Shown here: positions 10,701-57,300 of the stretch, in pieces
Numbering within the stretch: position 1 is the first letter of the stretch
How the letters are laid out: each line of letters begins with the position of its first letter
From: Hemerocallis citrina
Taxonomy: Eukaryota > Streptophyta > Magnoliopsida > Asparagales > Asphodelaceae
Length of the DNA: 64,000 nucleotides
Direction of reading: 5' to 3'
Assembly: GCA_017893485.1 (NCBI GenBank)
Contig: CM030358.1
Span: forward strand, 150,983,368-151,047,367
Translations under genes and position numbers: made by a program
The notes under the pieces: generated by a model
The model's input: the letters and a program-made list of their open reading frames with translations, nothing else
What the model was told of the DNA's origin: nothing
The model's database searches: none

Positions 10701-13555
10701 GCCCGAAGGATCCGTTCCCTCTCCCGAATATCGACACCCTCATTGATGCCACCTCGGGCCATGAGCTCCTCAGCTTCATGGACGCCTTCTCCGGCTACAA
10801 CCAGATCCGAATGTTCCCCCCAGACATTCCGAAGACTTCCTTCATTACCAACCAGGGCCTCTACTATTATAGAGTTATGCCGTTCGGATTGAAGAATGCT
10901 GGAGCCACCTACCAGCGCCTCGTCAATAAAGTCATCCAAAGCCAGATAGGCCGCAACATGGAAGTATACGTCGACGACATGCTCATGAAGAGCATCCGAG
11001 GTACCGACCACGTGGCTGACCTCCAGGAGGCATTCGGTGTACTGAGAAGGCACAACATGAGGCTTAATCCGAACAAGTGTGCGTTCGGGGTCTCGTCAGG
11101 AAAGTTCCTCGGCTTCATGGTCAGCCAGCAAGGGATCGAAGCAAATCCTAAAAAAATTAAAGCCATACTGGACATGGCCCCATCCCGGAACGTCAAGGAA
11201 GTGCAGAAGCTTACGGGTCGCCTCGCCGCTATTGGGCGATTCCTTTCGAAGTCTGGGGAAAAGTGCCTCCCTTTCTTCAAGGCTCTCAGGGGGGCCAAGG
11301 GTTTTGAGTGGGGCGAACTGCAACAGGAGTCGTTCAAATAGCTGAAAGCCTACTTGGTCAATCCTCCCCTGCTCAGCAAGCCCGTTCCAGGAAAAACCCT
11401 CTTTATCTACTTAGCTGCTTCCGAGCAGACCCTAAGTGCCGTCTTGGTGAGGGAAGAAGAGCGGGCTCAGAGGCCCATTTACTATGAGAGCAAGGTGCTT
11501 CGGGACGCTGAGCTCCGCTACCCGAAGGTAGAAAAGATGGCCTACGCCCTGGTTATGGCGGCAAGGAAGCTCCGCCCATACTTTCAGTCCCACTCGGTTG
11601 TGGTCCTCACCGACCAACCGCTGAAGCAGGTCCTCCACAAGCCGGAAACCTCAGGCCGGCTTATGAAATGGTCCATCGAGCTGAGCCAACATGACATCTC
11701 CTACTAGCCTCGGACTGCGATCAAAGCTCAAGCCCTCGCGGACTTCATCGTCGAAACCACCATTCCCGAAGTCAGCCATGTCCCGAACGGACCCCCTATT
11801 TGGACGGTTTTTGTGGACGGTTCCTCCTGCAACGAGGGAAGCGGTGGCGGTATCATCCTGACAGGCCCAGATGACTTCGTCCTCCAGTATGCCCTTCGCA
11901 TGAAATTCAAGGCCTCAAACAACGAAGCAGAGTATGAGGCACTAATCGCTGGCCTCGGACTTGCCCGAAGTGTCGGGACGCAGCGCCTCCGAATCCATAG
12001 TGACTCTCAGCTGGTTGTGAACCAAGTCTTGGGCGATTACGAGGCACGAGACGAATGGATGGCGAAGTACCTCGCCAAAGTCCGAACCCTCATGGCACGG
12101 TTCGAAGAGGCACTCATCCAACGAGTCCCTCAAGAAGAGAATTCACAGGCCGACGCCCTCTCCAAGTTGGCCTCATCCTCCCTCCAAGGTCTCGAGCAGA
12201 CCGTCTTGATCGAGGTCCTCTTGAAACCGAGTATAGAAGACGAGACCCTCGACTCAGTGGAGTCATTGCCGGTCCTACTGCAAGATAATTGGATGAAACC
12301 GTTAGTGGAATTCCTAAGGGACGGACTCCTCCCCGAGGACCCCAAGGAAGCACGCCGAGTAAGAACCCGGGCCGAGCGGTACATCCTGATCAAGGGAATC
12401 TTGTACAAGCGCTCCTTCTCGCAGATAGACGGCCGACCGTACCTGAGATGCCTTTCCCAAGAGCAGGCCACCGATGCCTTACAGGAGCTCCACGAAGGCA
12501 TCGGCGGGGCACATTCAGGGTCTAGGTCCTTAGCTCGGAAAGCTCTGAATTACGGATACTTCTGGCCGACTCTCCTCCAAGACGCCGAGCGACACGTTCG
12601 GCAGTGTGGCTCTTGTCAGAGACATTCCAATATTCGTCGCCTCCCCCAAGCTAACCTCGCCTCCCTATCAAGTCCTATCCCCTTCGTAATGTGGGGGATG
12701 GATTTACTAGGGCCATTCCCTCCAGCTCCAGGCCAGTTCAAGTTCTTGGTCGTAGCCATCGACTACTTTTCGAAGTGGATTGAGGCCGAGCCCCTAGCTA
12801 CTATCACCGAGAACAAGGTACTTCAATTCTTTTGGAAGAACGTCATCTGCCGATTCGGCGTCCCCCGTGTCCTCGTAACAGACAACGGAACTCAGTTTAC
12901 TGGGGCCACGTTCCGAGCTCTATGTGAAAACCTTGCCATCCAACAGCGCTTCTCCTCCGTATCCTACCCCCAGTCGAATGGCCAGGCAGAGAACGCTAAC
13001 CGGCAGATCCTCTCTGGTATCAAGAAGAGACTAGACAAGTGTTCTAAAGGCTTATGGGTCGACCAACTTCCCAACATGCTGTGGAACTACCGCACCAACA
13101 AACGGACCCCCACAGGAGAGTTCCTGTTCAACCTCACCTATGGGTCCGAGGCAGTGATTCCCCTCGAAGTCGGCATACCTTCTCCTCGCCTCACAGCCTA
13201 CAACGAGGAACAGAACGCCAGAGAACTCCGGGTGAACCTAGACCTGATCGACGAGCTGAGGGAAAGAGCATCAGTTCGCCAACAGAGCTATCGAAGGAGG
13301 ATCGAGTTGGTGTATAACAAAAAGGTCCGACCTACCAATCTCAAAGAGGGGGACTTGGTCCTCAGAAAACTAGTCATCTCCTTCCCCAATCAGAAGAGCA
13401 AGCTAGCTCTGAATTGGGAAGGACCTTACAAGATCGCAAAAGTAGTTCGGCCCGGAGCTTATCGTCTAGAAGACCTTGAAGGCAGTGAGATTCCGAGGAC
13501 CTGGAACGTCGACCACCTTTTAAAAGACCAAGAAAGCGCCCCGGTGCCTCTCTGA
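7794..13555 (+). pseudogene. gag-pol polyprotein of the Tat element, four in-frame stops
   Basis: Encodes the structural and enzymatic polyprotein for reverse transcription and integration. From 7868 to the TGA at 13553-13555 one frame is kept, broken by TAA at 8330 and 8912 and TAG at 11339 and 11705. The ATG at 7794 (MPPRKVRSRG) is one frame off, so a frame change lies at about 7840-7866. Seen in order: capsid-like gag (8755-9110), a CRYHRDHGHDTNDC knuckle (about 9440), protease LVDNGSSVNVL (about 9857), RT with YVDDM (about 10967), a first RNase H (about 11240-11700), a second RNase H with FVDGSSCNEGSGGG (about 11806), an integrase zinc finger (about 12480-12630), and a catalytic core with MDLLGPF, VTDNGTQF and GQAENANR carrying D, D and E. 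The catalytic residues look intact. The gag stops align with Glu codons in the related element, so simple substitutions can explain them. Confidence 0.93.
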
Positions 13556-32068: not shown

Positions 32069-33433
32069 ATGGCCGATAACAAGATGGAGATCGAGAGATT
32101 CGATGGAAGTGACTTCACGATGTGGAAGATTCAGATGATAGCGTATCTTCGTCAGAAAGATTTTGATGGTCCGTTGTTTGATGAGAAGTCGGTAGGTGCA
32201 GACAAGGATGTGAAGGTTTTGGCGAAGTGAAATCGTTTGGATCAGAAGGCGCTGGGGCAGATTCAGTGGGAGTTGAGTAGGAAGGCATTATTTCATATCT
32301 CGAAGGTAAAGACCACATAGGAGGCTATGGAGATTATCACGGATATGTATGAGAAACCATCGGCATCTAATCAAATTCTTCATCTGAAGAAATTGATTAA
32401 TATGAAGTTGAAGGAATGAGGTTTAGTAGCAGAGCATGTGAACAATTACTGTATGGTTTACAACCAGATGGAAGCTGTAGGTTTGAAGTTTTCAGAGAAG
32501 GGGCAGTCATTGTTACTTCTATCTACTTTACCCGATAGTTATGGTACGGTAGAACAGACTATTACAGGCACTATGACAGATTTAACTACTCTACAGAATG
32601 TGGTGAGTAGCATTCTGAACGAGGAGGTGAGAAGGGTGAGAAACGGGGAATATTCATCATCATCTTCTAGAGATTCTGCCATGTACGTTGAGAAGAGACG
32701 TGGGAGATCTAAGGACAGTCGAAGAAGAAAGGATCAGAGTAGTTCATCTGAGAGTGGGTCTGATGACAGCGATAGGGGACATGGGCCTGAGTGCTGGTAT
32801 TGTCACAAGAAGAGTCACATGATGCGCAGATGCAAGGCTTATATGAAGAAAAAGCAGGAGAAACCGAAGAGAGATACTCCAAAGAAAGCTCAAGTGGGGC
32901 TTATTGAGAATCTATGCTTATCAGCTCTAGAGGAGTTGGGCACTCAAGATTGGTGTATTGATTCGGGTGCTTCTTTTCATTGCACTTCGAGGAGAAATGT
33001 ATTTGATGACTACGAGGACGGTTCTTTTGGAGATGTGATCGTGGGGAATGGTCACCGGTGTCCTGTACGTGAGATTGGTACTATTCGCATCAATACCATT
33101 AATGATCAAAGTGTTGTCTTGCAGGAGACAAGGCATGTTCCAGACTTGAAGGAAAATCTTATCTCGATTGGAAGGCCAGACAAGGAGGGTTTGTCTACTA
33201 CAGTTGGTAGTGGGGAGTGGTGTATATCTGCAGGCTCAAGGGTGATTGCAAAAGGGAAGCGTGAGGGAACGCTATATTTGCTTAGAGACGTGAGGGGCAT
33301 TTCTCTTGTAGTTGACTCTCAGCCGGAATCGAGTAGTAGGTTGTGTGGGGTGCAACCGAGTTCTTTCAGTTATGGAGGGAAGGTTACTAATTTTGTGGGA
33401 GATGCTGGCCATGGAAGTGATCTTAGTGGGTAA
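32069..33433 (+). pseudogene. copia gag with zinc knuckle and protease motif
   Basis: The frame opens at ATG 32069 (MADNKMEIERFDGSDF, a typical copia gag start), runs through stops at about 32227, 32319 and 32416, then is open from 32438 to 33433. Gag assembles the particle and the protease would process it. The UBN2-type gag region is followed by a Ser/Arg-rich linker, the knuckle CWYCHKKSHMMRRC (CX2CX4HX4C, near 32795-32836), and the aspartic protease motif WCIDSGASFHCT (near 32950). The frame ends soon after, where an integrase would begin in a complete element. The region to 33807 has no recognisable pol. The early stops make this copy inactive. Confidence 0.9.
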
Positions 33434-36779: not shown

Positions 36780-37500
36780 TTTATAGCCACAAATAGCATT
36801 TGTAGTAAGTTGGCTATTTTTCCAAATTTTGCCAACCAAATTTTGCAAATTTAGCAAAATTTGTGCCGTAGTCGTTGGCCAAATGCTCATTTTTTGGGTT
36901 TGAGGGGAACAGTACCAAGCTATATTTGAGAGAAGATATAGCAATTGCCAGAAATCGAAAAATCATAATCCGTCCGATCCAATTTTTCTCCCAAAAAGTT
37001 CTTGGACGAATGATGATCTTTCGTCCCATTTTTTATATATTGAAAACATAATAGACGGGAAATGATTTCCCATTTGAATCATTTTTTTTTTAAAATTGAA
37101 CGGACGGGAAATGGTATCCCGTCTGTTTTCTTTCTTGAAAAATATTCCATGGAATTAAGCCTATAGAATTATTGTGCATACATATTAGAATTTAATTAAG
37201 ATTTGAAATTTAATTAGGATTAAATTAAGATTTAAGATTAAATTAAGATTCTTAATTTCCTCTCGGATGGGATTTGATCTCCCGTTCGTTAATTTTTTTA
37301 AATTTAAAAAAAATTAATCATACAAAATTTGATCATTTTTTTTAAATTAAAAAAAAAATAATCAGACGGAATTTGATCTCTCATTCGTTACTATTTAAAA
37401 TTTAAAAAACAAAATTTTAAATAGGATGAAAAATCATCTCCATCCGACATTTTTTAAAAATCAAAACCTATATTTTGGCTTCAAACGACTACAACTCTAA
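36780..37500. mobile_element. Harbinger-related remnant
   Basis: Between 37050 and 37440 imperfect palindromes of the GACGGGAAATGATTTCCC type recur every 50-100 bp, as in the subterminal parts of the PIF/Harbinger element at 44848-51558. End-like sequences 'cgttggccaaatgctc' (to about 36889) and 'cgactacaactctaa' (about 37498) resemble its right TIR. No left end was found, so this is probably a decayed or composite non-autonomous copy. Confidence 0.55.
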
Positions 37501-37695: not shown

Positions 37696-37704
37696 ATATG
37701 CACG

Positions 37705-37949
37705 GAATTTTTTCCCAAAACGATCCATTTTTGCAAAGTTTTTCCCAAACCGCTCTACTTTTTTTTTTATTTCCCAAAGCGCCCTACTCGGTCTTTCAAA
37801 GACCGAGTCTAGTGCAAATAGACCCGAGTCTTGCACTTTGAAAAATCAAAGACCAAGACTCGGTCTTTCAAAGACCGACTCTATTTGCACTAGACTCGGT
37901 TTTGGACTTTGCGTTTTTAATAGCGCGGATCCCCTTTCTTCTTCTTCTC
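37705..37949 (+). repeat. left TIR of the Mutator-like element
   Basis: Starts GAATTTTTTCCCAAAACGAT and contains two copies of the GGTCTTTCAAAGACC palindrome. Inverted partner at 44346-44598. Confidence 0.93.
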
Positions 37950-38855
37950 CGACTTTTGATTGTTTTTTTCTTTTCGCTCTGTCCCTCAACGAATCCGTCG
38001 CACTCGCTACTTTTTAGTTCGATTACTCCCTTAATCGATCGTTAAACTTCCCAAAACCAATTACTCTCTAATCCAATTTCGATTTTCCCCAATCCTATTC
38101 CCCAAAATCGATTATTTCTTTAAACCCTAAACCCCGAATACCCAAAATTGGAAGATTTCGGTTGTAGGATCTTGCTCTTCTTGCCAATTTCGTCTTCGTC
38201 TTTAGATTCTCCTACTTGTAAGGTATATTTCTTAAGCTTTTGCTAAGCAAAATTTGTGTTAGTGTTGATGCTATTGTGAAGTTTATTAGTTGAATTTGAC
38301 TTATTGTTGACAATGTAGAGCAGTTATTGATGTTATTTTTAGTATTAATTTTGCTTAGCATTGATGTTCAAGAAGAAAGAGTTGAGTTATTGATGTTATT
38401 GAGTTATTGATGTTCAAAAAGAAAGAGTTGAGTTATTTTTAGTATTAATACCCAAATTTTGTTGAGTTATTGATGTTCAAAAAGAAAGAGTTGAAAGAGT
38501 TGAAGTTGGAATGAATAGAATTATGTTGAAAGAGTTGAAAGAAATTTTGTTGAAAGAGTTCAATTTTGTATAGAATTTTGCTGAAAGAGTTGAAAGAGTT
38601 CAATAACCTTGTTGAATAGAATTTTGTTGTTGAATCAATTTTGTATAGAATTCCATATAGTATGTGTTGAATCTAGTTTTTTAGAATTTTATAGAATCTA
38701 GGTTATGTATAGAATTTGTTGAATTTGTTATACTCTAGTTTTTTGCTGAAATTAGAGAATCAACGGCATTGTTATATAGAATTTGTTTTTATATCTAGGT
38801 TATGTATAGTTAATAACATTTTTGTTGAACTTGTAGGATTTGTAGTCTATTGTAA

Positions 38856-40200
38856 ATGGCACGCATAAGGGGTAACATGGAGGTAGGAGAAAGTAGTAGA
38901 CCTCCACTTGGCGATAGAGCACGTACTCGCGGTGGACGTGATCGTGGTCGTGGTCGTGGTCGTGCTCCTACCGAGGCTACTAATGTAAGTAATTAAATAT
39001 TGATTCTAATAGAATTGTATTACATTTCGGTCTATTGATTTAAATGTTATTGTTATGCAGGTTGAATTCAATCCAAATGAGGCGGGCACTTCCTCTTCAG
39101 TCCCTTCGTCGTCATATATCCCTTCTGGAGGCCCCGGACCACTCGACCCTTCACTCCTCACTCTCCAGCCGATGCATCGATCGCAGTATGTTTGGAACGG
39201 TGAGGCTACGGAGTGCCGCTTTAGGACTGGTCATCCGCTACCTGTGCACCCACGTATACACGAGATACTTAGAGATTGTGGGTTCTACGGTATTGCCAGG
39301 ATGACATCCATCAAGTGCGATCGTCCACTTTTGGAAGCACTGCTTGAAAGATGGAGGCCCGAGACACACTCATTTCACCTGCCAGTCGGGGAGATGACGG
39401 TGACTCTACAAGACGTTGTCATACTAACCGGACTTCCAATCGATGGAGAGGTAGTCACAGGATCGATGGACTTCGACCCAGTGTATTTAGTGGAAGAGTA
39501 CTTAGGGGTTGAAGTGGAAGCCGGTGCGATAAATGGAAAATTTATCCGTCTAAAGTGGTTGAAGGACACCTTTAAAGATAGATTGAATGACGGTTCATCT
39601 GCAGCGGAGGTGGAGTGCTACTATAGGGCGTATATTCTAACGCTATTCGGCACGGTCTTGTTTCCAAATTCAACCGGGAATACCGTAGCACTGATGTTCT
39701 TGCCCTTAATCGCCGACCTAGGTAGGGTAAGCCGTTACAGTTGGGGCAGTGCAATACTATCATCACTGTATCGGAGTCTGTGTCTGTGCAGTATAGGTTC
39801 GAACCAGATGAATGGACCTCTAATTTTACTGCAGATATGGAGTTGGGAGCGGATTCACGTAGGTCGGCCTGTAGAACGGATCCAATCCCAACATTGGAGA
39901 GTTCTTCCTGAAGATATTGACATGCTACCTCCGATCGGTGTGTATTGGACAGGAAAACTGACATGGACAGCCAACCCCAACAGGTGCTTGACATACTACC
40001 GCGATGAGCTCGATAGGTTGGCCGCTGACTGTGTGGTGTGGACCCCTTACACAGAGGAGCGACTGATTCTTATTTTGTGCAGTAGATGTGGTAGAGAGTT
40101 ATGGTTTGTTATGGTGGTCTTATTATGTGTTAAGTTGGTGTGGAGTGGTGATATTTTCTTATTTTGTGTTAAGTTGATTTTGGAGGAGTTGAAGAGGTGA
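38856..40200 (+). CDS. plant mobile domain (PMD, MAIN-like) protein, 3'-truncated
   Basis: Two exons. Exon 1 is 38856-38984 (MARIRGNMEVGESSRPP, then an RG-rich stretch RDRGRGRGR), intron GT at 38985 to AG at 39060, exon 2 from 39061 to the stop at 40200, in frame, 422 residues. The PMD part (residues about 80-350) includes RPETHSFHLP, GEMTVTLQDVVILTGLPIDG and VYWTGKLTWT. Host MAIN/MAIL1 proteins with this domain are nuclear and linked to genome stability and transposon silencing; the role of transposon-borne copies is not settled. After residue about 350 the family pattern is lost: the last residues (REL, then hydrophobic LLCVKLV) run into sequence next to the inverted repeat, so the usual C-terminus is missing. 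It may be a shortened but translatable gene. There is no stop before that point. Confidence 0.85.
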
Positions 40201-40473
40201 TTTTGTGAAGATTGTTTCAAAGATTGTTGTAGAGTCTTGTTGTGAAGATTGAGGGTTTTCTTTGGCTGTATCAAAATCTTAAACATGTTGGAATTTTGGC
40301 TGTATCAAGAATGAGGGTTGTATTTGGCTGTATCAAGAATGAGGGTTGCATTTGATTGTGGTAGTGATGATGGGATTGTGAAGAATTTGATTGTGGTAGT
40401 GATGATGGGATTGTGAAGAATGAGGGCTGTATCAAGAATGAGGATTGTATTTGATTGTGGAAGAATGAAAGGG
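40201..40473. other. simple-sequence-like spacer after the PMD gene
   Basis: Variants of 'ctgtatcaagaatgagggtt' and 'gattgtggtagtgatgatgg' are repeated. Likely slippage-derived; no gene. Confidence 0.6.
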
Positions 40474-41222
40474 GTTGTGAAGAATTTGAAGAATCTTGTG
40501 GTTTGGTGTTGTGAATATAGATATGGATGTGAAGAATTTGAAGATTGTCACAAAGAATCTGGCTGTAGCAAAAAAAACACACAGCATCAAGACTCGGTCT
40601 TTCAAAGACCGAGCTTAGTATAACTAGACTCGGTCTTTGAAAGACCGAGTCTTGTTGCTGAGTGTTTTTTTTGCTATCAGACTCAAGGTCTAGTTATATT
40701 AAGCTCGGTCTTTGAAAGACCGAGTCTTGAGTTCAATAGACTCCAGAACTCAAGCAGCTCTCTGGAAACTTGTGAACATCACAGTCAGTCTTTCAAAGAC
40801 CGTTTTAAAAACACCTAGACTCGGTCTTTCAGACCGAGTCTTCAATCTGAGAATTTTTGATTGAAGACTCGGTCTTTCTTTGAAAGACCGAGTCTATTTG
40901 TTTTTAAAACGGTCTTTGAAATATCGACTGTGTTGTGCACAAGTTTCCAGAGAGCTGCTTGAGCTCTGGAGTCTATTGAACTCAAGACTCGGTCTTTCAA
41001 AGACCGAGTCTTGAGTCTGATAGCAAAAAAAAAACACTCAGCAACAAGACTCGGTCTTTCAAAGACTGACTGTGTACTAAGCTCGGTCTTTGAAAGACCG
41101 AGTCTTGATGCTGTGTGTTGTTTTTTGCTACAGCCAGATTCTTTGAAACAATCTTCAAATTCTTCACATCCATATCTATATTCACAACATCAAACCACAA
41201 GATTCTTCAAATTCTTCACAAC
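40474..41222. repeat. large inverted repeat between the two converging genes
   Basis: The left arm (about 40474-40846) is the reverse complement of the right arm (about 40858-41222) with scattered mismatches and small indels; the loop is about 11 nt around 40852. Landmarks: 'gaagaatttgaagaatcttg' at the left outer end, 'caagattcttcaaattcttc' at the right, and 'aagcagctctctggaaactt' against 'aagtttccagagagctgctt'. About nine copies of the GGTCTTTCAAAGACC palindrome or near variants lie inside. Transcription through it from either gene would give a long hairpin RNA. Confidence 0.9.
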
Positions 41223-41359
41223 AAACTTCACAAGATTCTTTGAAACAATCTTCAAATTCATTGAAACAAGCATTCTCAACAACAAACCACAACTATCCAA
41301 ACTAAGTGTTCATTTCGAAATAAATATTACAAACACAATAGGAAGCACATAATCATATT

Positions 41360-43994
41360 TTAATTGTTTTGAGATGCTCTGTTAGTACATCGACGCTTGT
41401 TGTGTCCTTCCAACCCGCACCTTGAACATTTCATTCTTGTACCCCTGCTAGAACTATCTCTCACATCCATATCGTTGCGTATTCTCGTGGATTTAGGCCG
41501 GGCTTTCCGTGAACGTCGCCCGTCGATAGTAGGCCAATATGCTTCATCTAGAATAGGACTGAACACAGGTGCCCAAGTTTGTGCTAATGACGTGATAAGG
41601 AAAAATTTATCAACATAAGGCTTGTGATCGATTGCACGATATGCACAGGCTGCTAATACATGAGAACAGGGAATATGATATAGATGAAACTTCATACATG
41701 TGCATGTTTTCGTACCCAAATTCACGGTGTGCAAGTTCCCACCCTTCCGTTCTCCATTTACCATGCGTATACCCGTTTTGACGGAAAAAACTCCAGGCTG
41801 ATGATGAAACATTGTAACCACATGTTGATTTGCTCTTTCACGGCGACTATCAATCAAATCATGTACACTTTTAGCAAAAATCTTCCCTTCACATAAAAGC
41901 TTACTAGCTTCCTATCGACGAGTAGTAAAGTAAGAGTTGAGACGTAAAAAAATCGTCTCAACAATCGCAGTTACTGGTAAACTACGGACTCCTTTCAGTA
42001 CTGAATTGAAGCATTCTGACAGGTTCGTAGTCATCATTCCATATCATCGACCTCCATCTGCATAAAGTGCCCATTTCTCAACTGGCTTCTCTTTCAACCA
42101 ATTAGCCGCCTCTACATTGACGATTTCAAGTTCAGCGAGTTTGGCCATGAACTTTTTGGGTTGGTGTTGACAAGCTATAATTTTGGCCTTCTTGCGCAAT
42201 GCCTTGCTACCAAATTTACTAAAAAAATTTGTGGCAAAATGACGCATGCAATATCGATGAAATCCATTCGGTTCGTTCCAAGCTCCGTTTTGCAAATCCA
42301 TAGCAGACAATATACCAGCATGACGATCCAAGATAACACACAACTCAGTGCGATTGGTGACATAATACCGGATGCAAGTCATAAACCATGTCCACGTATT
42401 TATACTCTCTTCATCAACCAATGCAAATGCAAAAGGAAATAAGCAACCATTCGCATCCGGAAAAACAGCAATTAGCAAACAACCCTTGTACTTACCGTAC
42501 AAGTGAGTTCCATCTACACTGATAACCGGTCTGCAAGACTTGAAACCTTCAATCGAAGGATCAAATGCCCAAAATACTGTCTTGAATGTTTCCTCACTGG
42601 GGCTAGACTCATATTTATCCCAGTGGACATCGGTCCCTGGATTTGCTGTTAGCAGAAAAGGCAACTTCGTGTATGCTTCTTCGAAGGTACCGTACAACCT
42701 CTCAATTGCCTTTTGTTTTGCTTTCCAAGCTTTCTTATATGAAATCTGATAATTATATTCTATTTTCACAATCTCAATAATTGTTCCCGGAAATAGAGCA
42801 ATATCCTTCTTCACCACACCCACAATCAAATTACTAACAAGGTTAGCATCAATTTTATAGTGGTCTTGATTCAACGTGGGATTCGTACAAGTATGAGGGC
42901 CAACTATTTTTTTCACCACAAAATTTCTCCCCCCTTTTGGAACAATAGCTCGTAATCTCCAAGGGCATCCACCATCACTTACTCCTGGGGGACCTTGTAC
43001 GATCTCCTCTTTTGTACGGTTTCTAGGTGCCATTTTACATTTAACAGTGTATAGTGACGGTGTTGTTTTCAATGTGACAAATTCACGATGTTTCTTGATA
43101 GAATACACCTTCACAGCATGCTGAATGGACTCTTTACTTACAAACTCCTGTCTAACGTAAAATTCGTCTACATTGGATGAACCAGAAGACTCTTGTGGAA
43201 ATGGGGGTACTCTAGCAGCTTGAGCCATCTCCTCCGTAACATGAGCATTAACATTAGCATACCTATCAATAGCTCTCACTTCATTAGAACTATTGTTCGA
43301 AGGATTTACATTTGCTACATCATCATCTTCTTCTCCATCATCACTTTCTAGACTTTTATCATCGTCTGTTTCTTCTTCTTCTTCATCATCATCTAATAAG
43401 CTGTTGTTAACCACTGCATTTTGAAAGAGTTCAAATACACTGTCATTTGGAACATAGTCAGGAACCGGTGTAGGTTGGGGGGGGGGGGAACTCAACATCT
43501 GTAGAATCAGCATTTCTTGTATTTGTGAATGTGTTTTCTTGTGAGGACAGTGGATTTGGTTGTGAAGATTGAGCGGGGTTAGACATTGTCTGCTGTGTAG
43601 GTACTACCCTTATGAAGCTTGCACTTGGAATATCATGTGGCTGAGCATTCAAGTTTTGAATTTGCTGAATATATAACTCTAATGCAGACCAAGCACAATT
43701 GGGATCAAATGTCTTAGCAATCAATGACTTCAGCGCATTATTAGTAGGTACGGGCACTGTCATAAAATACTGACCATCTCCTCTTCCTGCTGCGTATCGA
43801 GCTAAAATTTTCACATTCCATTGATTCATATCCCAATTAGTAATTTCATATATTTTCTCAACTAGTTCTTCAAATGTAATGGTACGGGGTACCCAAACTA
43901 TTTCCGGATCCAATACACTATAGCAACTACCAATCTTTGGATCACGAATTATTTCACCACCAAAGTATAACCAAATAGGAATCTCAAGATCCAT
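41360..43994 (-). pseudogene. MURA-type Mutator transposase
   Basis: Would cut and paste the element by a DDE reaction at the TIRs. Starts at 43994 (MDLEIPIWLYFGGEI), about 875 codons. Residues 1-100 look PB1-like; then a spacer, an acidic stretch, and a Mutator DNA-binding region (YVRQEFVSKESIQHAVKVYS). The catalytic part has VISVDGTHLYGKYKG (first D, near 42517), CVILDRHAGILSA (second D, near 42330) and NLSECFN (E, near 42020). A SWIM zinc finger CTCMKFHLYHIPCSH (near 41690) and a CCHC knuckle CSRCGLEGHNKRRC (near 41410) follow. Three defects: a frame change at a run of 12 G (43478-43489), a TGA at 42044 and a TAG near 41913. All motifs remain recognisable, so inactivation is recent. The stops fall close to the catalytic Glu. 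Confidence 0.92.
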
Positions 43995-44345
43995 ACCTAC
44001 GTATATTTATTAAAATATGCGAGTTATTATCTAACCACAAACAAAATCTATAACAAAATTCAGAAAATTAAAGGCCAATATTCATCATACCTTCACAAGC
44101 GTCAATGATAGAGCCGTAGATATTCCGGTAAAAGAGTTAAAGTTGCTATCCGCTTCAAATTTAGCAAAAATCAAAAAAATGGATCTTTCAAAATAAGGGT
44201 TTTGGATTATTATAGTGGAGATGGTTAGAGGGTTAGGAAGATATTGGTAAATATATTTAGATTAAGATTAGATTTTGTTGGTAGGAGGTCGCCCTAGATT
44301 TAGGAAGATGGGTTAGAGAAATAGAATATGTTAAAGTAGAGAGAG

Positions 44346-44598
44346 AGAAGAAGAAGAAAGGGGATCTGCGCTATTAAAAACGCAAAGTCCAAGACTAGTG
44401 CAAATAGAGTCGGTCTTTGAAAGACCGAGTCTTGGTCTTTGATTTTTCAAAGCGCAAGACTCGATCTTTCAAAGACCGAGTCTATTTGCACTAGACTCGG
44501 TCTTTGAAAGACCGAGTAGAACGCTTTGGAAAATAACAAAAAAAGTAGAGCAGTTTGAAAAAAACTTTGCAAAAATGGATCGTTTTGGGAAAAAATTC
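44346..44598 (-). repeat. right TIR of the Mutator-like element
   Basis: Inverted partner of 37705-37949, with three copies of the GGTCTTTGAAAGACC palindrome type. Confidence 0.93.
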
Positions 44599-44607
44599 AT
44601 ATGCACG

Positions 44608-44844
44608 AAAGGGAACAATTATCACTCATCTACCTGCACTTCCTATCGATCGCATAATATCCCTCTCTGACACATCGGTCCTACTCACACTTCAGGACAA
44701 CTCTTTGAAAGAGGAATTGAGTATAACTGCATTCTAATCTGATAAAACTTCACTATCACCATCATTTCTTTTTCACTAGTCTTTTATTATTATCATCATT
44801 TTTTGTATAAACCAGGAGAAAGAAGAAATACAGGAAAGTGCATA
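44608..44844. other. spacer between the two DNA transposons, possible host exon
   Basis: A 43-codon open stretch to the TAA at 44735-44737 has ordinary protein-like composition (LPALPIDRIISLSDTSVLL). It would follow a splice acceptor at 37694 if the Mutator-like element were absent. I do not recognise the protein. Confidence 0.25.
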
Positions 44845-44959
44845 TAAGAGCATCTGCAGTCGGTGGTTGCTAAATTTTGGGTAAATAACACAGAGAAATG
44901 AAAAATATGAGTTGTCAGTGTAGTCATATAAAGCTAAAATTTGGATTTTCATACGTTTT

Positions 44960-45330
44960 TTAATATCAGACGAAAAATTATCTACCGTCGTAGCACTTCG
45001 TATACATAAATTTAGTTGGACGGAGGATTATTTATCGTCCGTAAAATTAGAATTTTTTTTTTTAAATCGAATGGGACGACGGATCATTTGTCGTCGGTTG
45101 GATTTTGTTTTTTTTTTTAAATAATTCGATCGGACGGGAGATTATTTCCCATTCGACGAAAGGGGGCAAAATTGACGCGTTTTTGGGTGTCGGACGATGC
45201 TTAATGTTTCGTCTCATTAAATTTATTAATAAAAACATTAAAAATTTTGGCGCCAGACGAAGGATAAAACACCGTCCGTGAAACTTGCGCTAAAATGGAT
45301 CACGAGACGTGATTGAGACATTCGTCTCAT
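44960..45330. repeat. left subterminal palindromic repeats
   Basis: About seven imperfect dyads of the form GGACGRAGGATTATTTATCGTCC recur every 40-65 bp (near 44970, 45020, 45075, 45130, 45190, 45254 and 45305). Similar ones lie at 51220-51410. They may bind the transposase or ORF1 protein; that is inference. Confidence 0.65.
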
Positions 45331-45546
45331 GTGAAAAAGTAATATAAAAAAAATTCAAAAGGCAAATAAAGATGCTGGTTGAATAATTTACTTGGACAAA
45401 ATTATCCTTCGCCGAATGTGGGTTTCTCCTTATATATGGAGTTGGTTTAGAGAAGTTGAAACAACAGATTACATTACATCTTCTCTGTCTCAATTCTTCA
45501 TTTCCTTATTTCTTCCTCATCCTACCTCAATTCCCCAAAAAAAAAT

Positions 45547-47644
45547 ATGTCAATTAAACGTTTTATTGGTAGGCTCAAATCGAAGGGTATATTTAGTTCT
45601 GATCATGGTAACAGAGACAAATAACCGGAATCGGTTACTGAAGAAGTTGATTTAAACAATCCTAAAATGTGGATACCAGTAGTCGACAACCGCACTCATA
45701 TATGTAAGAATATTACTGAAAATTCTTTTGGTGGGTACTGTAACTTTAGGGGTAGTTGAAATGTTCCAATCAAAGCTTACAAGATTTGTTCTTGTATCCC
45801 AGTAGTGAAACAACTAATAGATAATACTGGCTGAAAACGTTTTTTCACAATTGATACGGAAAAATCATCCCATAAGATTGTTGAGTCTTTGGTTGAGAGA
45901 TGGTGGGACACTACCCACACATTTTATCTCTCATGCTGTGAGTTGGGTTTTACCCCGTTGGATTGGGCGATGTTAACGGGAATATCCATTGGGATCGGCA
46001 ATCAACCACCATGTAACAACGAGGCATATCCATTCGAAACAGTATAGTCCCGCTTCTTTCCTGAACTTACTTCCGATGATTGGAAGTCTCAGGAAATACG
46101 TTGTTCATTCCTGAAGAAATATTTCCACAGTAGTGTGATTGAGGCAGCAAAAACTGACTTGGTTATGAGGGTCGCTAGGGCATTCTTTTTTTTCTTCTTG
46201 AGTGAATTCCTTTTTGCAAATGGTGCTTCTGTTATTAGGTGTGGATAGCTTACAGCCCTCGCAGATTTGAGTAAATTTGGCACATTTGATTGGGGTAGTC
46301 AAGCTTTCGCACTATTATTTATGTCTCTGGATGCTTGTTCTAGGCATAGAGTTAAATCATTCAACGACCCATGGCAAGTACTCGAGGTAATTTTATTAAT
46401 AAGAGTACTAATTTAAACTTTTATATACTCATATATTCCAGGCTAATACATCATTATATTGTCAGTACTGGGCATATGAATACACATGTGTGTGTGTTTC
46501 AATCACTGTAAATACGGAAAATATTGCCGACACATTGCGAGCCACTGACAAAAGGCCAAAAATAATATGTTGGAACAAAAGTGAAATTGAGTACCGAAGA
46601 ACAGATCACGTTAGGTACAATATATCTATTGCTATGTACCAATTGGAGATGCGAACTTCGGCATCAATTATATGGCAACCGTATTTTGGATCTTCATATG
46701 AGGGTGAGCATGATATTATGCACGCTAATATCATGTCTCGTCACCGAATTGTTTTCCAGTTTTACGAGCAGGTAATAGTTTATATTTGTCACTTTATGAT
46801 ATTTTTTATTTACCGAGTTATTTAGGATATGTTTAATTTTTGTAATTTTACATAATTATATTGTAGGGTGTTTGGTATCTTGGTGATCGGTGTTACCGTC
46901 AATTGACTGGGATTATAGTAATACCAAGAGAACCACCGGTTGTTATGTCTAGAATACCAGTACAAGATATATGTCCACCTATTAACGCTTCTCAATTGGT
47001 CCACCCAGTAACCCAACGTATATATGATAAATATTAGGCAAAAGTATCAACAGGTGCTATTATGAAGAAAGTCTCGCATGTGGCAAATATTAATTTTAAT
47101 GGACCAGCTAGCATTAGTGATCCGACCGCACAGTTACCATTTCCTGCTCCACCATTTTGGGCCTCATCAGAGTATGTAACACAACCGTTTGAGGAACAGC
47201 CTGTAGACTACGGAGAGTGTGCAGTGGAAATGTCGTTGTATTATGAGGGAACAGTTACGAGAAGTTATCCACGTGAACCTGTTCATTTAGAACCCCGCAG
47301 TTCAAAATCATATGTAAGTTTATTTCCAACATTCTTACTTTACAAATAATTTCTAATTGACTATATTTACATCTGAAATATAACAGGAGGAACTGTACCA
47401 TGAACATGCTCAAGCAACTAATACGGAGGCACAATTACGAAGACTCATTCTAACTGAAACAGTATTAAGATCCTCTATTCCAACTAAAGTTATCGATCGT
47501 CGGAGATCAATATCAGGAGATCGGCCATCGCAGTCGGGTCGGTGGACCATGCATAGGAATGTTCAATACAGTAACACTTTTTATGATTCATCTAACCGAT
47601 CACCGGAATTCGTGCCAGAAACACAACCTGGGTATGATGATTAG
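45547..47644 (+). pseudogene. PMD protein gene carried by the Harbinger element, four exons
   Basis: Exons by splice sites and continuous phase: 45547-46386, 46442-46771, 46867-47313, 47387-47644 (280, 110, 149 and 86 codons). All introns are short, GT-AG, phase 0. PMD signatures: LVERWWDTTHTF, LGFTPLDWAMLTG, ANGASVIRCG, FDWGSQAFALLFMSL, and in exon 3 GVWYLGDRCYRQL. About six in-frame stops (near 45625, 45748, 45832, 46046, 46246 and 47036) disable it, yet every exon border is intact. At about 625 codons it looks complete. It lies upstream of the transposase gene in the same direction, about 430 bp apart. It is clearly a different PMD lineage from the one at 38856-40200. The function in the element is unknown; interference with host silencing is a guess based on the host MAIN/MAIL1 proteins. 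Confidence 0.85.
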
Positions 47645-48071
47645 ATATGGTAGATTTCTATTGCTAGTAGGCATTGTAAAAAAATGATCAATGTTGTAAT
47701 ATGAGATTAAAATGAAGTTGTGTTTTACCAAGTAAAATTAAATTTACAATTTTAATGCCCAATTAGCTAATGAGGGTTTTTTTAGTAATTTGCTTAAACA
47801 TAGGATTCGTTTCATTCTACATTGGTCATTACCGTTTCATTCAACCATGAACATGAAAGAATGTTTCCAAATTGAGATGTCACATCTTGTCACTTCACAT
47901 CTTGTCACTTCACTTTACATCTTTTCAAACTTTTTGAAGTTTGTCCATACGCTGTTGGTTTGTTTTTTGATTCGTTTCTTCCTTCGTAGACAACCAACAT
48001 GCTATTTAAGGACCATAAACAAAATATGAAAATGCATACCCAGATACACCAAATCAAAAAAGAAACAGAAG
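47645..48071. other. spacer between PMD and transposase genes
   Basis: AT-rich, with a direct repeat 'tcacatcttgtcacttcaca' near 47880. It probably holds the transposase promoter. Confidence 0.4.
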
Positions 48072-49357
48072 ATGACTTCTTCAAGCTACGTTGGCTCCTC
48101 TTCTTCATCCGACGAAAAAAATGATACGCTTGCACACATTATGAATCTACGTATGAATGTATTGTCGTTAGTTGTTCAAGACAATCAACGTACTAACCAC
48201 CGATGGTATATTTGTCGGGAAAGAGAAGATGGTGATAGACATCTTCACAGGGATTATTTTGCCGATAATCCTATTTACGGCGACACTCTATTTCGACGTC
48301 GTTTTCGTATGCACCGGCATTTATTTATTCGGATACTCCAAGCAACTGTAAGTTATGATTTCTATTTTCTTCAACGCCAAGATGCAACAAAAGCATTTGG
48401 CTTATCCCCATATCAAAAAATTACTGTCGCAATACGCTGTTTGGCATATGAAACTTCTGCCGATGCAATTGACGAATACATACGTACAAGCGAATATACG
48501 GTTCTAAAGATATTGCGACGATTTTGCATGTCAATTGTTAACGTGTTTGGGCCAGAATACATAAGACATCAAACGGCAAATGATGTGCAGAGGCTATTGG
48601 CAGAAAATTCATCTAGGGGTTTTCCAGGAATGTTAGGAAGTACTGATTGCATGCATTGGGCATGGAAAAATTGCCCGGTAGCCTGGCATGGTCAATACAC
48701 GGGTCACATACGTGAACCCACTATTGTTCTTGAAGCAGTGGCATCTTTCGATCTTTGGTTTTGGCATTCTTTCTTTGGAATTCTGGGGTGCAATAATCAT
48801 CTGAAAGTCCTCAACCGTTCTCTGCTGTTCAACAACATTCTCAATGGTTGTGCACCACCTGCTGAATTTTTAATTAACAATCGTGCATATAACATAGGGT
48901 ACTATTTAGCTGATGGTATATACCCCCATTGGCGACTATAGTGAAGACTTACTCAGCTCCAGATACACCGAAAAAGAAGAAATTTTCACAGATGCAAGAG
49001 GCTGCACGAAAGGATGTTGAGCGGACCTTCGGGGTATTACAGGCACGATTTACTATAGTTAGAGGTCTAGCCAGACTTTGGGATCCTAACAGTCTCTCAT
49101 ATATTATGAAAACGTGTATCATATTACACAATATGATTGTTGAAGATGAAAGGAAAGATGGGATTGGTGAATATGTATACGAACAACAAGCTAACTCGGC
49201 CTTCGTCACCCCTAATAGGTCTGGTCCAACTAAGTGTGCAGCTCGAATGGCACATACCGTACAACTGCATGATAGACAAATGCATCATGCACTTCGTCTT
49301 GATTTAGTTGAACATATTTGGAACACATATGGAGAGGTTGAAGAGAACGAAGATTAA
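48072..49357 (+). pseudogene. PIF/Harbinger transposase (DDE nuclease)
   Basis: About 428 codons from ATG 48072 (MTSSSYVGSSSSSDEK) to the stop at 49357. Family matches are strong: GMLGSTDCMHWAWKNCP with the first catalytic Asp, YNIGYYLADGIYP, and RKDVERTFGVLQARF with the catalytic Glu. Two defects are visible. The frame shifts by one base near 48930, between IYPHW and the following TIVKTYS. At the expected second catalytic Asp ('NNDINVL' in relatives) the sequence reads NNHLKVL, so Asp seems replaced by His. Either would abolish cutting. The transposase would act on the TIRs together with the Myb-like protein encoded on the opposite strand at 49967-50807. Confidence 0.92.
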
Positions 49358-49960
49358 GCAAAGATTTGAGATTGGTGCAAATGTGGAATGTGTAATTTGA
49401 GTTGGGAAAATTTTCATAAATGTAGCACTGTTAGTGTTTATGTTATGCTTTTAATTTGAGTTGAAGTTTTGTGCATGTTTTCGACTAATACTCGATTAAA
49501 AATTGTAAAATCAAAATATAATTTTCTAAGATGCTTAAACTTTTATCTTATATAACATGTACGAGTTATTAAGACACATTAAAACATGTCAATATCTCAA
49601 AAATAGAATCCCTCTTTTAACTTCAAACACATCAAAATCATTGAACAAGTCAAGAGCAGGACAACATATGCATACACAGTAGGGTTCTCCCTTTAAATCA
49701 AATTTTCGTTTACTTTTCATACAAAAACACCATACAACTCAACATATAATATTCAAACAACAACAATATAATTAAAATAACCACATTAAAAATCCATCAT
49801 TTTATTAATACCGGGTCACGTACATTAATAATAACCACATTAAAAACATTACAACATTAACATTAACAATAAGAGATAACTAATACAAATTGATGTACTA
49901 CTTTAACCCGGATGGGCCCCTTTTATGCATTATTTCATTCTGTCGACACAGAAAATAATA
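49358..49960. other. 3' regions of two converging Harbinger genes
   Basis: AT-rich, no ORF. Holds the 3' ends of the transposase and ORF1 transcripts. Confidence 0.5.
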
Positions 49961-49963
49961 ACG

Positions 49964-50807
49964 TTAACTTTCACTTAAGCTACTCAAATCCATACCCATT
50001 ATACGATCTTCATCCGCTCTTTCTAACCAATCTCGATCTCGTTGTTTCATCTCAAGCCTTCTTTCCTGCGTACTAATATAAAAAGCGTTAAAATTTCTCG
50101 TCTCTTCGATCATTGCAGAAACATCGGTGGCTTCGGAGGTGCGCTTCCCTTTTTTCTTTGCTTCTTTCCTACCAAGTGGTCGAGAAAGTGGGAAATGTGC
50201 ATTGAGATCAATTGGTATATCTGAACCCCATTGTACGTTTGGTGGTGAAGGGTTTGAACTACCACCTTCGTCAAATTGAGTATTTGGGATTGGTTTGAAA
50301 ACCTGAGTTGTACGAGTGGAGAATTTTGGTTGATCTTTCAAAATTTCATAACAGTTCAAATTTGAAGGGCTTGCCAGCTAACTGCATATATTCTAGTCGC
50401 GCATTGCGTACCTATTATAAAAAAAATTGTTCACGAAGATTAAGTTAACGGAATTTATTTTTATAAATGATACATATGAAATTAATGAAATTCATTAAAA
50501 CAAAACACACCTTATCCGCATCCATAGTACCGCTTGTCGCTCTATTGGTCACACTGCTCATCTTCGCAATGAACAGTGCAACTTCCTTTGACATAGTAGA
50601 GAATCGACTGCAAAGAGAGCCGGCTGTTCTATCGGTTGGACTTCCTAATAGATTGACAAATGTGAGAGAAATCCTATCCCAAAATTGAGACCCAGTTTAA
50701 TCGGTACCGATCAATGGAGATTGGGTTATTGCAACCCAACTTTGAGCCAAAATAATATCCTCATACATGGTGTATGCCCAGCCTCTAATTGGACGAGGAT
50801 TAGCCAT
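49964..50807 (-). pseudogene. Harbinger ORF1, Myb/SANT-like DNA-binding protein
   Basis: The companion protein that PIF/Harbinger transposases need for DNA recognition and nuclear entry. Exon 1 runs 50807-50511 (MANPRPIRGWAYTMYEDIIL), with a TAA near 50700, then FWDRISLTFVN and a SGTMDADK stretch that match the trihelix/SANT-like family. The intron is GT at 50510 to AG at 50412. Exon 2, 50411-49964, has EYMQLAGKPFKFE, a one-base frame change near 50350, then NCYEILKDQPKFS and, toward the C-terminus, RPLGRKEAKKKGKR and a charged helix. The stop and the frame change make it non-functional. Convergent to the transposase gene, as usual for this superfamily. Confidence 0.8.
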
Positions 50808-50819
50808 AAAATGAAATAA

Positions 50820-51558
50820 AAACAATATTGAGAATTGATACGGGATAGATAGATAGGAAGACCCTTAAGCAAAAAATTTGAGATGTGGTTTATAGAAAAG
50901 AATAGAGAGTGAGATGAACCCAATTCGTCTGCTCTGTTTGAGGATTTCAAAAACAACAGTGAGTGAGATGAAATGAGAAGAACACAGAGAGAGAGGAGAA
51001 CTGAGAGTGAGATGAACCCAATTCTTCTGCTCTGTATGAGTTGTTTACTTATATGAAGTAGTGTTTTTTTTTAAGCCGTTGGAGTGCGTTTGTACATCGA
51101 ATAGCCGTTGTAAAGTATAAAATTATAGGGAAAATGTGGATAAGGGTAAAAAGGTAATAACACAATTTGAAAAAAACAAAGGGGTACCAAAAGATTTTGT
51201 CTTTTAGACAATTGTAGGGACGGAGGATTATTTACCGATCGACGTTTTTTTTAATTATAATTTATTTCACAGACAGTATATTATCTTTCGTCCGATCAGA
51301 TTTGAGCTGCGAATTTGTAGGACGGTGTTTTATTTTTCGTTCGACCTCTTCGACGAAAGATAATCTTTCGTCTCATTAAACGGACGAAAGATTATCCTTC
51401 GTTAGCTATATTTTGGCAAAAGTCATTTCGTCTCTTATATTTGGCCAAGCAATGTTCATGTCAGATCGATATTTTGGGTAAATTGCCAACGACTACAACG
51501 TTTTTTTTTTTCATTTTTTTCCAAAATATGGGTAAATGGAAAACGACTACAAATGCTC
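50820..51558. other. right subterminal region of the Harbinger element
   Basis: Non-coding leader of ORF1, then palindromes of the GACGAAAGATAATCTTTCGTC type (51220-51410) and the TIR. The repeated phrase 'gagtgagatgaacccaattc' occurs near 50907 and 51005. Confidence 0.6.
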
Positions 51559-51561
51559 TAA

Positions 51562-53720: not shown

Positions 53721-53757
53721 TCATTGTATCTCAAAATCTTTGAGATACAACCCTCTC

Positions 53758-54341
53758 GTAAGATCGACTCTCTCGGATCTTCGATTCGAGGTTGGATTCC
53801 TCCAGCCCCTGAATCGAAGGCCCGTAGATTACGGGGGCTCTCTTTTCCCCTATCACCCCTTTCTTCATCCTTCTGTGATGTTCATCACAAGTTCCCGATT
53901 AAGTCTCTCGACCAATCTCCGATGCCTTATTCTGCCAGCATCTCGTCCCCCCTTCCCTCGCTTGCTATGGAGTCGAAGTGCATCGATTCCGAGAGCAAAC
54001 TCCCCCCACTCTTGCCTCATCGCTACCTCAGGTCTAGTGCTAGACTGTTAGCCAATAAACAGAAAAATTCTCCTTCCCCAGTCGACCGTTTCTCCGCTGC
54101 TGGCATCAGCACGGACAAACCCAAGATTCTATCTCCGTCATCCTCCGACCAACCCCTGACCCACCATAACCAGCTAGGGTCCTTATACTTCCCTATTTTC
54201 AACTCTCTCTCTGATAGCAAAATTGCTACCCCTGCGCATAACATGGGTTTCCTTATCGACCCTACTGACTCCCCCCGGATCTGTGCTATTAGAAAATTAG
54301 AACGTCTTAGATTCTTAGAGCACAGTCAGCCCCATGATTAG
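53758..54341 (+). pseudogene. LINE ORF1 C-terminal remnant
   Basis: An open Ser/Pro-rich stretch ending at 54341, overlapping the ATG of the endonuclease ORF (54334) by 8 bp, the arrangement expected for ORF1/ORF2 of plant L1 elements. The N-terminal domain of ORF1 proteins and the CCHC knuckle are not seen. Function in RNA binding is therefore lost. Confidence 0.55.
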
Positions 54342-57300
54342 TGTCTCTTGGAACATTCGAGGCTTGAATTGCCCGTCTAAGCAACGGGCGATCTTTGACT
54401 TAATCTCTTCTTCCCACTGCGACTTAATCTCCATTAAAGAATCCAAATTGGTTTCTCCCACTCAATCGATCCTAAGCTCTTTAGGCGGAACCCTAATCTC
54501 TAAGTGGATTTCATTGGATGCTACCGGATCGAGAGGAGGGATTCTATTTGGATTTAAAGAAGCGTTATTCTCGCTTATTGCGGTTCAACGCCTTAATTTA
54601 TTTCTTATCACTAAGCTTTTTTGGACGCAATTCAACTGTCCCCTTACCGTTATTTCGGTTTACGGTCCCTCCTCCTCCGAGGTGAGGTCTTTATTCTGGA
54701 CCGAATTTCTCTCCTTACAACAATTTTCCAGCGATCTATGTATCCTCTGTGGCGACTTCAATGTTACTTGCTTTGTTTCCGAAAGATCGAATCCAGTCCC
54801 CTCTTATACCCAATCCTGCCTTTTTAATGATTGCATCCGCGAGCTGCAACTATCTGACCTACCAATCTCAGGTAGGTTGTTCACCTGGTCCAACCAGCGT
54901 CACCCTCCCACGTTCGCCAAGCTTGATCGTTTCCTAGTATCGCAATCCTGAATCGAGCGGTTCCCTCAATCTTCCTCCCAAGCTCTCCCTAATCCATCTT
55001 CGGACCACGTTTCGATTACCCTATCTTCCAATTTTCATTTTAGCCACCAGCATAAATTTCGTTTTGAAAAATTATGGTTACAGGACCAACTTTTCGTTAG
55101 CCTGGTGGTGGAATGTCTTGCCTCGATTAACGGTTCATCCGAATTGGGCAACATCCTCCTCAAACTTCACGCGATCAAGCACGGTTGCAAAATCTGGCGT
55201 TCCGAGAGACATCACGACACCCTCTTCCTCAAACTTCCTCCTTCATTCCATCGAGTCCCTTGATAAGATGGAAGAACAAGTTCCGTTATCTGATGCTACT
55301 CGAGCAAAGCGTCTTTCCTGCAAGCAAGATTATGCTGACATTCTCGAGCAAGATCATACAAAATGGGCTCAAAGAGCGCGTATTAAATGGATGAAGGAGG
55401 GAGATGCCAATACCGCATTTTTCCACAACTTTGCCTCTCATAGGAAACGTTGTAACCGAATTTCATCGATCTCCGTCCAGGGGGTTGATTTCTCCTCCGA
55501 TGGAGAGATCCATCGGGAATTCCTTAATTTCTATAAAACCCTTATTGGCTCGCAGAAACATCGCGCAGTCGAGCTCGATTGGCTTCAACTTTATGGTAAC
55601 CAATCTCACGATCTCTCTTCTCTTGAAGCTCCCTTCACCATGGAAGAAATCAAAAGTGTTGTTTTTGCGTTAAAAAGCGACTCAGCCCCTGGCCCAGACG
55701 GCTTCCCGGCCTTCTTCTTCCAAAAATTTTGGGATTGGCTTAAGGAAGATCTCTTTAAATTGTTTCAGGACCTTCACCAGGGTCACTTCTCCTTTGACAG
55801 CATTAATTATGCGCACATAGTTCTCATTTCCAAGATAGCGGGGGCTCACTTATTGACCAACTTCAGGCCCATCAGCCCGATCAACACTTCTTTCAAAATT
55901 ATTATGAAAGTCCTGTCTTCTAGACTGGGCGCTATAATCTCGCCCCTCATCGACTCCGCACAATCGGGATTCATCAAAGATTGATTTATCCTTGATAGTG
56001 TTTCCTCGGCTCAGGAGATCATTTCCCACTGTCATAGATCTAGCTCTGAGGGTATCCTACTCAAGCTAGACTTTCAAAAAGCCTACGATAATGTTAATTG
56101 GGAATTCCCCCTTGACACCCTTACCTTCCGAAGATTTGGCCCCAAATGGATAGCTTGGATTAAATCCAGCCTATACTCGGGGACCTCTTCTATCTTCATC
56201 AACGGCTCGGAAGGGCACAAATTCAAAATTAAATGTGGTCTCCGGCAGGGAGATCCCCTCTCCTCTCTTCTTTTTGCCCTCGTTGCCGACGTGTTTAGCA
56301 AGCTTCTCAGGAATGCTTGGAACCTTTATATATCGAGGGTCTCGGATCTTCCCCCCATTTTGAGGGGGTTCTCAATCTGCAATATGCAGATGACACTATC
56401 ATCTTTTCCAAACCCAACTTTCACTCCCTTCGCAACCTAAAACTTCTCCTTTACTGCTTCGAAATGGCTTCTGGCCTTTCTATCAATTTCTAAAAATCTT
56501 CTGTCCTTTGGCTTAGCGGTTCCCCTAATCGCCAGGTTGAGGTATCCAATTTCTTCAATCGCCCTATCGCAAGCTTTCCGATCTCGTATTTAGGCATCCC
56601 TCTGAGATGGGGTAAGTTGCGCAGAGCTGACTGGTTCCCACTTATAGATAAAGTGGAATCTAGGCTTTCTGTTTGGGCTGGTAAAGTCCTCTCCCGAAGA
56701 GGCAGGTTGGTACTCATTATCTCGGTTATTTCAGCCATGCCTCTTTATATGATGTCTTTTCACTTCATGCCCTCCTGGGTGATCAAGAGGATTGATCAAA
56801 TCAGGAGTAATTTCCTCTGGTCCGGATCTGCCTCCTTTAAACCTGGATCGCACCTAGCTCATTGGAGATTAATCTGTTCCTCTAAAGAAGAAGGGGGCCT
56901 CGGTGTTTTGGATCTTAGGGACCATAACATTGCACTCTTGGGTAAATAGCTGTGGAGATTACACAATCTCAATCATCTCCCGTGGATCCAATGCATCAAA
57001 AATTATCGATCATCGTCTTCCAATTGGTGGGAATTCCCCCCTCTAACTTCTCGTCTCGCTTCCCCTTTCTAGAAAGGGATCTGGAAGGCGTCTTCCGCCT
57101 TCCAGTGTAGCATAGCTCGTACCTGTTATGACGGTTCCACAGCAAAATTATGGACTGATCTGTGGATTGGCAATATTAAACTTTCATCCGCGTATCCTTC
57201 TTTATTTCGTTTAGCGGCTTCTCCGTCAGCAACGGTGGCGAACTCGTTCATCATCATTGATAATGCTAGACATTGGCTTATCCCATTCGTGATCAATCTT

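Follow-up and report, generated by a model that had tools for sequence, protein, structure and literature searches.

Organization of the two elements

The window analyzed here, meaning the whole stretch of DNA under study, is 64 kb of a 3.78-Gb plant assembly (G000:C1:150983368-151047367). It contains two neighboring DNA transposons, a Mutator-like element (MULE) at 37705-44598 and a PIF/Harbinger element at 44848-51558, each of which carries its own plant mobile domain (PMD) gene besides its transposition genes. A preliminary description had reported two unrelated elements with exact borders less than 250 bp apart, and this was confirmed: the ends and target site duplications (TSDs) of both were located, with 237 bp between the right TSD of the MULE and the left TSD of the Harbinger element. 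The claim of a PMD gene in each was likewise correct, as both predicted proteins scored above the Pfam cut-off for the domain (PF10536, 34.9 bits). The MULE comprises the following features, where TIR denotes terminal inverted repeat.

37696..37704, left TSD, ATATGCACG (9 bp)
37705..37949 (+), left TIR region with two palindromic motifs (ACTCGGTCTTTSAAAGACCGAGT) at 37786 and 37858
38856..38984 (+), PMD gene, predicted exon 1 (splice consensus only)
39061..40200 (+), PMD gene, predicted exon 2, holding the plant mobile domain (profile match, splice consensus)
40474..41222, large near-perfect palindrome (749 bp) separating PMD from mudrA, two convergent genes
41360..44006 (-), mudrA transposase (DBD_Tnp_Mut, MULE, SWIM)
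44345..44598 (-), right TIR region with three palindromic motifs (44408, 44459, 44495)
44599..44607, right TSD, ATATGCACG (9 bp)

The 9-bp TSD, the long TIRs and the mudrA transposase are those of a Mutator-like element. The TIRs were identical over their first 20 bases and 88% identical between 37705-37949 and 44345-44598. PMD, on the plus strand, and mudrA, on the minus strand, are convergent. The PMD matched PF10536 with an E value of 5e-64 (217 bits). Its frame is open yet shortened, covering profile positions 1-272 of 347, and the C terminus was deduced to be lost because the similarity of the genomic copies stops at window position 40069. Frames read by eye showed that mudrA has two in-frame stops and, at a poly-G run near 43480, one frameshift. 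Parts of the 749-bp palindrome recur in three sampled genomic copies (L068-L070); the palindrome may yield a hairpin RNA or serve as a terminator.

The Harbinger element comprises the following features.

44845..44847, left TSD, TAA
44848..45213 (+), left TIR and subterminal palindromic-motif array (GACGAAAGATTATCTTTCGTC type)
45547..47644 (+), PMD gene, predicted exons 45547-46386, 46442-46771, 46867-47313 and 47387-47644 (splice consensus only)
48072..49357 (+), PIF/Harbinger transposase (PF04827 Plant_tran / PF13359 DDE_Tnp_4)
49964..50789 (-), second gene (open reading frame 1, ORF1), NAM-associated domain, probably intron-split
51172..51558 (-), right arm with motif array (51218-51403) and right TIR
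51559..51561, right TSD, TAA

Membership of the PIF/Harbinger superfamily was assigned from the 3-bp TSD with a short TIR and the Harbinger-type DDE transposase. The ends read GAGCATCTGCAGTCG and GAGCATTTGTAGTCG, at 44848 and 51558, respectively, and the gene order is PMD (+), transposase (+) and then ORF1 (-). The transposase matched PF04827 (E 1e-55) and PF13359 (E 6e-06), while ORF1 matched PF14303 (NAM-associated, E 3e-12), a domain found beside PF04827 in 3 of 20 protein matches. No match to the Myb/SANT part of ORF1 was found within the window. The same 20 matches yielded no fused PMD-transposase protein (PF10536 in none); the best candidate, P0005, appears to be a LINE-like (long interspersed nuclear element-like) piece joined to a transposase, and was rejected.

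The Harbinger PMD protein, with exons joined by eye and X placed at stops for the profile search, matched PF10536 with an E value of 2e-18 (67 bits). The window copy has six internal in-frame stops and zero frameshifts, and its transposase has one frameshift near 48914-48941 (frames read by eye). Decay of methylated cytosines was considered as the source of the PMD stops; four of these lay at Trp codons of relatives, the contexts were judged indecisive, and the idea was dropped. The gene models agree with the two exons (MULE) and four exons (Harbinger) claimed previously, on the basis of splice consensus only.

Linkage of the PMD to the Harbinger family

Genome searches were made with the DNA of the Harbinger PMD (best 40 of 2267 first-look candidates scored) and transposase (best 40 of 2179), and 30 PMD loci and 30 transposase loci were then examined, in partly overlapping sets that both include the window. 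Beyond the window copy, the PMD matches among the best 40 were 85-94% identical and mostly full length, introns included. PMD sequence lay at most 1.5 kb upstream of the transposase in 29 of the 30 transposase loci, the exception being L055. The preliminary description had named the lack of other such copies as grounds for abandoning its reading; its interpretation withstood this check, the PMD occupying the same place in other copies of the family.

Starting from the PMD loci, the left arm was covered to at least 0.42 in 29 of 30 (0.10 in L024), and transposase sequence was present downstream in 27, with coverage of at least 0.5 in 23 and none at L012, L024 and L028. Left ends could be located in 26 of 30 copies, counting the outer of two close matches, and TTA or TAA directly preceded 22 of the 26. 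Right ends were sought in four copies: two (L002 and L010) had matching TTA TSDs at both ends with differing flanks, and in the other two the right end was absent from the 1.2-kb stretch examined. The copies are not all independent, since L002/L003 and L051/L052 are near-identical pairs. In L007 and L040, a right-end-like segment adjoins the transposase, an arrangement suggestive of rearrangement or nesting.

These data bear on whether the Harbinger PMD arrived by chance as a nested insertion, or whether the element is a composite of two elements' ends. The TSD is just 3 bp long, and the TIR test cannot separate weak TIRs from chance; nothing beyond shuffles was found as a TIR or TSD belonging to the PMD itself, in a weak test where the true Harbinger ends also scored within shuffles. 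The proposal is contradicted by the constant placement of the PMD in 29 of 30 copies and by the matching TSDs in differing flanks (two of the four right ends sought), and no TIR-like end or motif lies between the arms. It was considered practically untenable. The association between PMD and Harbinger is a real, selected trait of the family.

Selection on the Harbinger PMD

Each of the 30 Harbinger PMD copies contains at least one internal stop, yet the majority state is without stops. To estimate pN/pS (the ratio of nonsynonymous to synonymous differences), 27 of the 30 copies were assigned visually to four groups on the basis of a tree, one of which (W) does not form a clean clade; L003, L010 and L014 were excluded. 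Between group consensuses, PMD pN/pS was 0.25-0.45 in six of six comparisons (p 2.5e-11 to 0.0057), the consensus of group Z containing one stop. Single-copy pairs gave a median of 0.56 (range 0.40-1.19, 435 pairs), higher as expected because decay after insertion would add to the value. The transposase, grouped by the same approach (23 of 30 copies), gave 0.06-0.21 between consensuses, and the difference from PMD was significant in three of four comparisons tested (Y-Z, p 0.16). From the consensus values it was deduced that the Harbinger PMD stayed functional as a protein during the spread of the family. By these codon comparisons, it has been under purifying selection, and relative to the transposase it is less constrained or changes faster.

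The alternative that the PMD genes are passive passengers from transduplication is in keeping with the known capture of gene pieces by MULEs (PMC5418596) and with the stops in all 30 copies. Against it are the presence of PMD in 29 of 30 transposase copies, the retention of a whole multi-exon gene and, for the Harbinger family, the consensus pN/pS values, which contradict it; passive carriage was therefore judged very improbable.

MULE PMD copies in the genome

When the best 40 of 3677 candidates from a search with MULE PMD DNA were scored, 39 matches besides the window were found, all 97-98% identical. Of these, at least four fall on PF10536 matches that span nearly the full domain, three of them stop-free. 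Three copies (L068-L070) were sampled as short stretches. In all three, the left TIR was found upstream of the PMD within differing flanks, and downstream came a portion of the central segment together with mudrA, represented by its 3' end or more; a tblastn search with the upstream part of mudrA gave no match in these stretches, which are too short to reach that part. Genome-wide, PF10536 gave 19735 first-look candidates, and the 117 that were scored all exceeded the cut-off. The number of candidates and the many equal-scoring PMD open frames of 517-519 amino acids point to a large and recent amplification of elements that carry PMD.

Two PMD lineages

The MULE and Harbinger PMDs were 24% identical over 230 amino acids. 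A quick tree of 75 rows was built from proteins of at least 300 amino acids, with support from the Shimodaira-Hasegawa-like approximate likelihood ratio test (SH-aLRT) in place of bootstrap. The Harbinger PMD grouped with P0001 (metagenome; 54% identical in the pairwise search and 58% over tree columns), Papaver, Coptis and one Logan protein. The other 69 rows grouped with the MULE PMD, and the split between the clades had an SH-aLRT of 100. The tree includes proteins named MAIN-LIKE and mutator. The tree program gave a long-branch warning, and the neighbors of the MULE PMD inside its clade were weakly supported. Relatives were also searched for in viral contigs and prokaryote genomes, and none was confirmed. 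The earlier suggestion that the two PMDs look like separate acquisitions fits the split, while the two-clade shape is partly built in because the rows were found with these two queries, and the tree lacks Arabidopsis MAIN/MAIL and Gypsy PMD references.

Fold comparison and motif arrays

The predicted model of the MULE PMD gave a fold match to VANC21 (9LNJ), a structure that, per its entry title, was solved bound to DNA. For the model of a Harbinger PMD relative, VANC21 was ranked by a second aligner, which re-aligns Foldseek's own candidates. These comparisons of models suggest that the PMD borne by transposable elements (TEs) and VANC21 have a predicted fold in common. TAF6L also matched residues 8-65 of the MULE PMD model (E 3e-05), partly in its low-confidence start. 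PDB sequence searches with PMD profiles or proteins found none at E <= 1 or 10, one run giving weak unrelated matches. DUF7745 matched 8 of 41 PMD proteins of alignment A2 (best E 1.4e-06), and by these matches may be a third branch of a PMD superfamily.

The MULE motif ACTCGGTCTTTSAAAGACCGAGT occurred 12 times in the 64 kb with up to 4 mismatches and not once in 20 shuffles; two sites lie in the left arm, seven in the central palindrome, three in the right arm and none in genes. In the same scan, the Harbinger motif had seven sites in the arms and none in genes, being confined within the element to the outer arms; outside it, there is one in a neighbor at 37005, and position 52720 gave a weak match. 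A separate scan with two overlapping patterns gave 26 matches, compared with 0-1 in 20 shuffles. In 29 of 30 Harbinger copies, the left-arm stretch contained at least two matches, a count made without a shuffle control. Each carrier thus has an element-specific motif array in its noncoding DNA, the arrangement seen for VANC.

A short non-autonomous element related to the Harbinger family probably occupies 36790-37498; the palindromic motif is common to both (37005-37287), the right end of the short element reads CGACTACAACTC followed by TAA, and its left end is poorly defined. Elsewhere in the window, 8915-13555, 32420-33433 and 53721-57204 contain Gypsy-type and Copia-type retrotransposon genes and an apparent LINE (endonuclease domain, reverse transcriptase-like similarity).

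Discussion

In the literature cited here, PMD is called a domain of unknown function, though transposons carry it and the silencing factors MAIN and MAIL1 contain it. PMD-A is described in Ty3/Gypsy elements, and PMD-C was taken up twice by MULEs, in grasses and in Amborella (Ikeda 2017, PMC5418596); PMD is present in 57% of Ogre elements (PMC6317226). VANC21 recognizes a nine-base motif, YAGTATTAY (Hosaka 2017, PMC5735166), in noncoding repeats of its own TE (PMC5735166, PMC10398659). Anti-silencing has been speculated for TE PMDs (PMC5418596), a review proposes them as a counter-silencing strategy, and fungal DNA transposons encoding a TET/JBP enzyme offer a parallel in kind. A PIF/Harbinger carrier of PMD and a kinship between PMD and VANC were not found described in the portions of the open-access literature searched, which does not extend to Repbase; two papers that mention both PMD and VANC draw no such connection where they treat PMD.

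We propose that the TE-borne PMD is a DNA-binding protein of the VANC21 fold that relieves silencing through motif arrays of its own family, both elements being multicopy PMD carriers; a probability of roughly 60% was assigned. Both are members of multicopy families with a PMD gene beside their transposition genes. The PMD, with its VANC21-like fold, would most likely bind DNA and recognize the short palindromic arrays in the noncoding DNA of its own family, and binding there would relieve host silencing so that the transposase genes are expressed. Direct support comes from the linkage to the Harbinger family (and in three sampled MULE copies), selection on the Harbinger PMD, the predicted fold and the noncoding arrays; we infer the binding to the motifs and the consequent removal of silencing marks.

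Several observations weigh against this proposal. The host relatives MAIN and MAIL1 promote silencing, the opposite sign (PMC5418596). Foldseek on the Harbinger-type model gave nothing at E <= 0.001, and VANC21 was absent from its 10 rows; the MULE and Harbinger-type models moreover have alignment rows in common. Scores against DUF1985 were below the Pfam cut-off of 35.1 (16.2 bits for the Harbinger PMD, 12.5 for the MULE PMD), and the higher pN/pS of PMD could be explained by relaxed constraint alone. The preliminary interpretation that PMD helps transposons is nonetheless strengthened by the purifying selection on the Harbinger PMD and the predicted fold match, the Foldseek result on the Harbinger-type model being the part that did not agree.

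The arrays, too, could be binding sites of the transposase or ORF1, in which case PMD would assist transposition, through tethering or target choice, instead of countering silencing. Transposases often bind subterminal arms, and within the Harbinger element the motifs are found only there; PMD is also retained together with the transposase. This reading appears unlikely, as 7 of the 12 MULE motifs lie in the central palindrome, far from the ends, and the protein matched by fold counteracts silencing. A further alternative is protein interference, in which TE PMDs would imitate MAIN/MAIL1 and so disable the host MAIN-MAIL1-PP7L complex, with no binding to TE DNA involved. That complex is required for TE silencing (PMC7156037), and the review's counter-silencing suggestion would suit such interference, which would leave the element-specific arrays unexplained and sits poorly with a VANC21 structure solved with DNA; we hold it to be distinctly improbable.

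Anti-silencing by the TE-borne PMD would resemble that by VANC of Arabidopsis VANDAL MULEs, with differences: VANC has DUF1985 and occurs in MULEs, whereas the PMDs here score far below that cut-off and one is in a PIF/Harbinger element; the VANC21 motif is also shorter than the palindromes here. Like the PMD-C MULEs of grasses and Amborella, the window MULE has a PMD gene, in a large clade with barley proteins named 'mutator protein'. Unlike those, described as transposase fusions in PMC5418596, its PMD is a separate gene that converges on mudrA across a motif-rich palindrome. The PMDs of Ty3/Gypsy (PMD-A; Ogre) are likewise TE-borne, in retrotransposons. MAIN/MAIL1, acting with PP7L, are PMD proteins too and influence gene expression as well as the silencing of TEs; they are encoded by host genes and promote silencing, whereas those here are TE genes. 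The Harbinger element resembles described plant PIF/Harbinger elements in its TAA/TTA TSD, GAGCATC-type TIR, DDE transposase and second gene, and differs in its extra PMD gene and palindromic subterminal array.

More broadly, and with the odds in our view evenly balanced, PMD and VANC (DUF1985), perhaps with DUF7745, could form one superfamily of motif-specific DNA-binding proteins, repeatedly adopted by unrelated transposon types for anti-silencing (MULE and Harbinger here, Gypsy in published work), each with its own array; host MAIN/MAIL1 would then represent a copy redeployed for silencing and the control of promoters. A fold in common with VANC21 gives PMD a testable biochemical role and would explain its retention by unrelated transposons. 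The kinship, if true, would link transposon anti-silencing to the host silencing pathway through one protein family.
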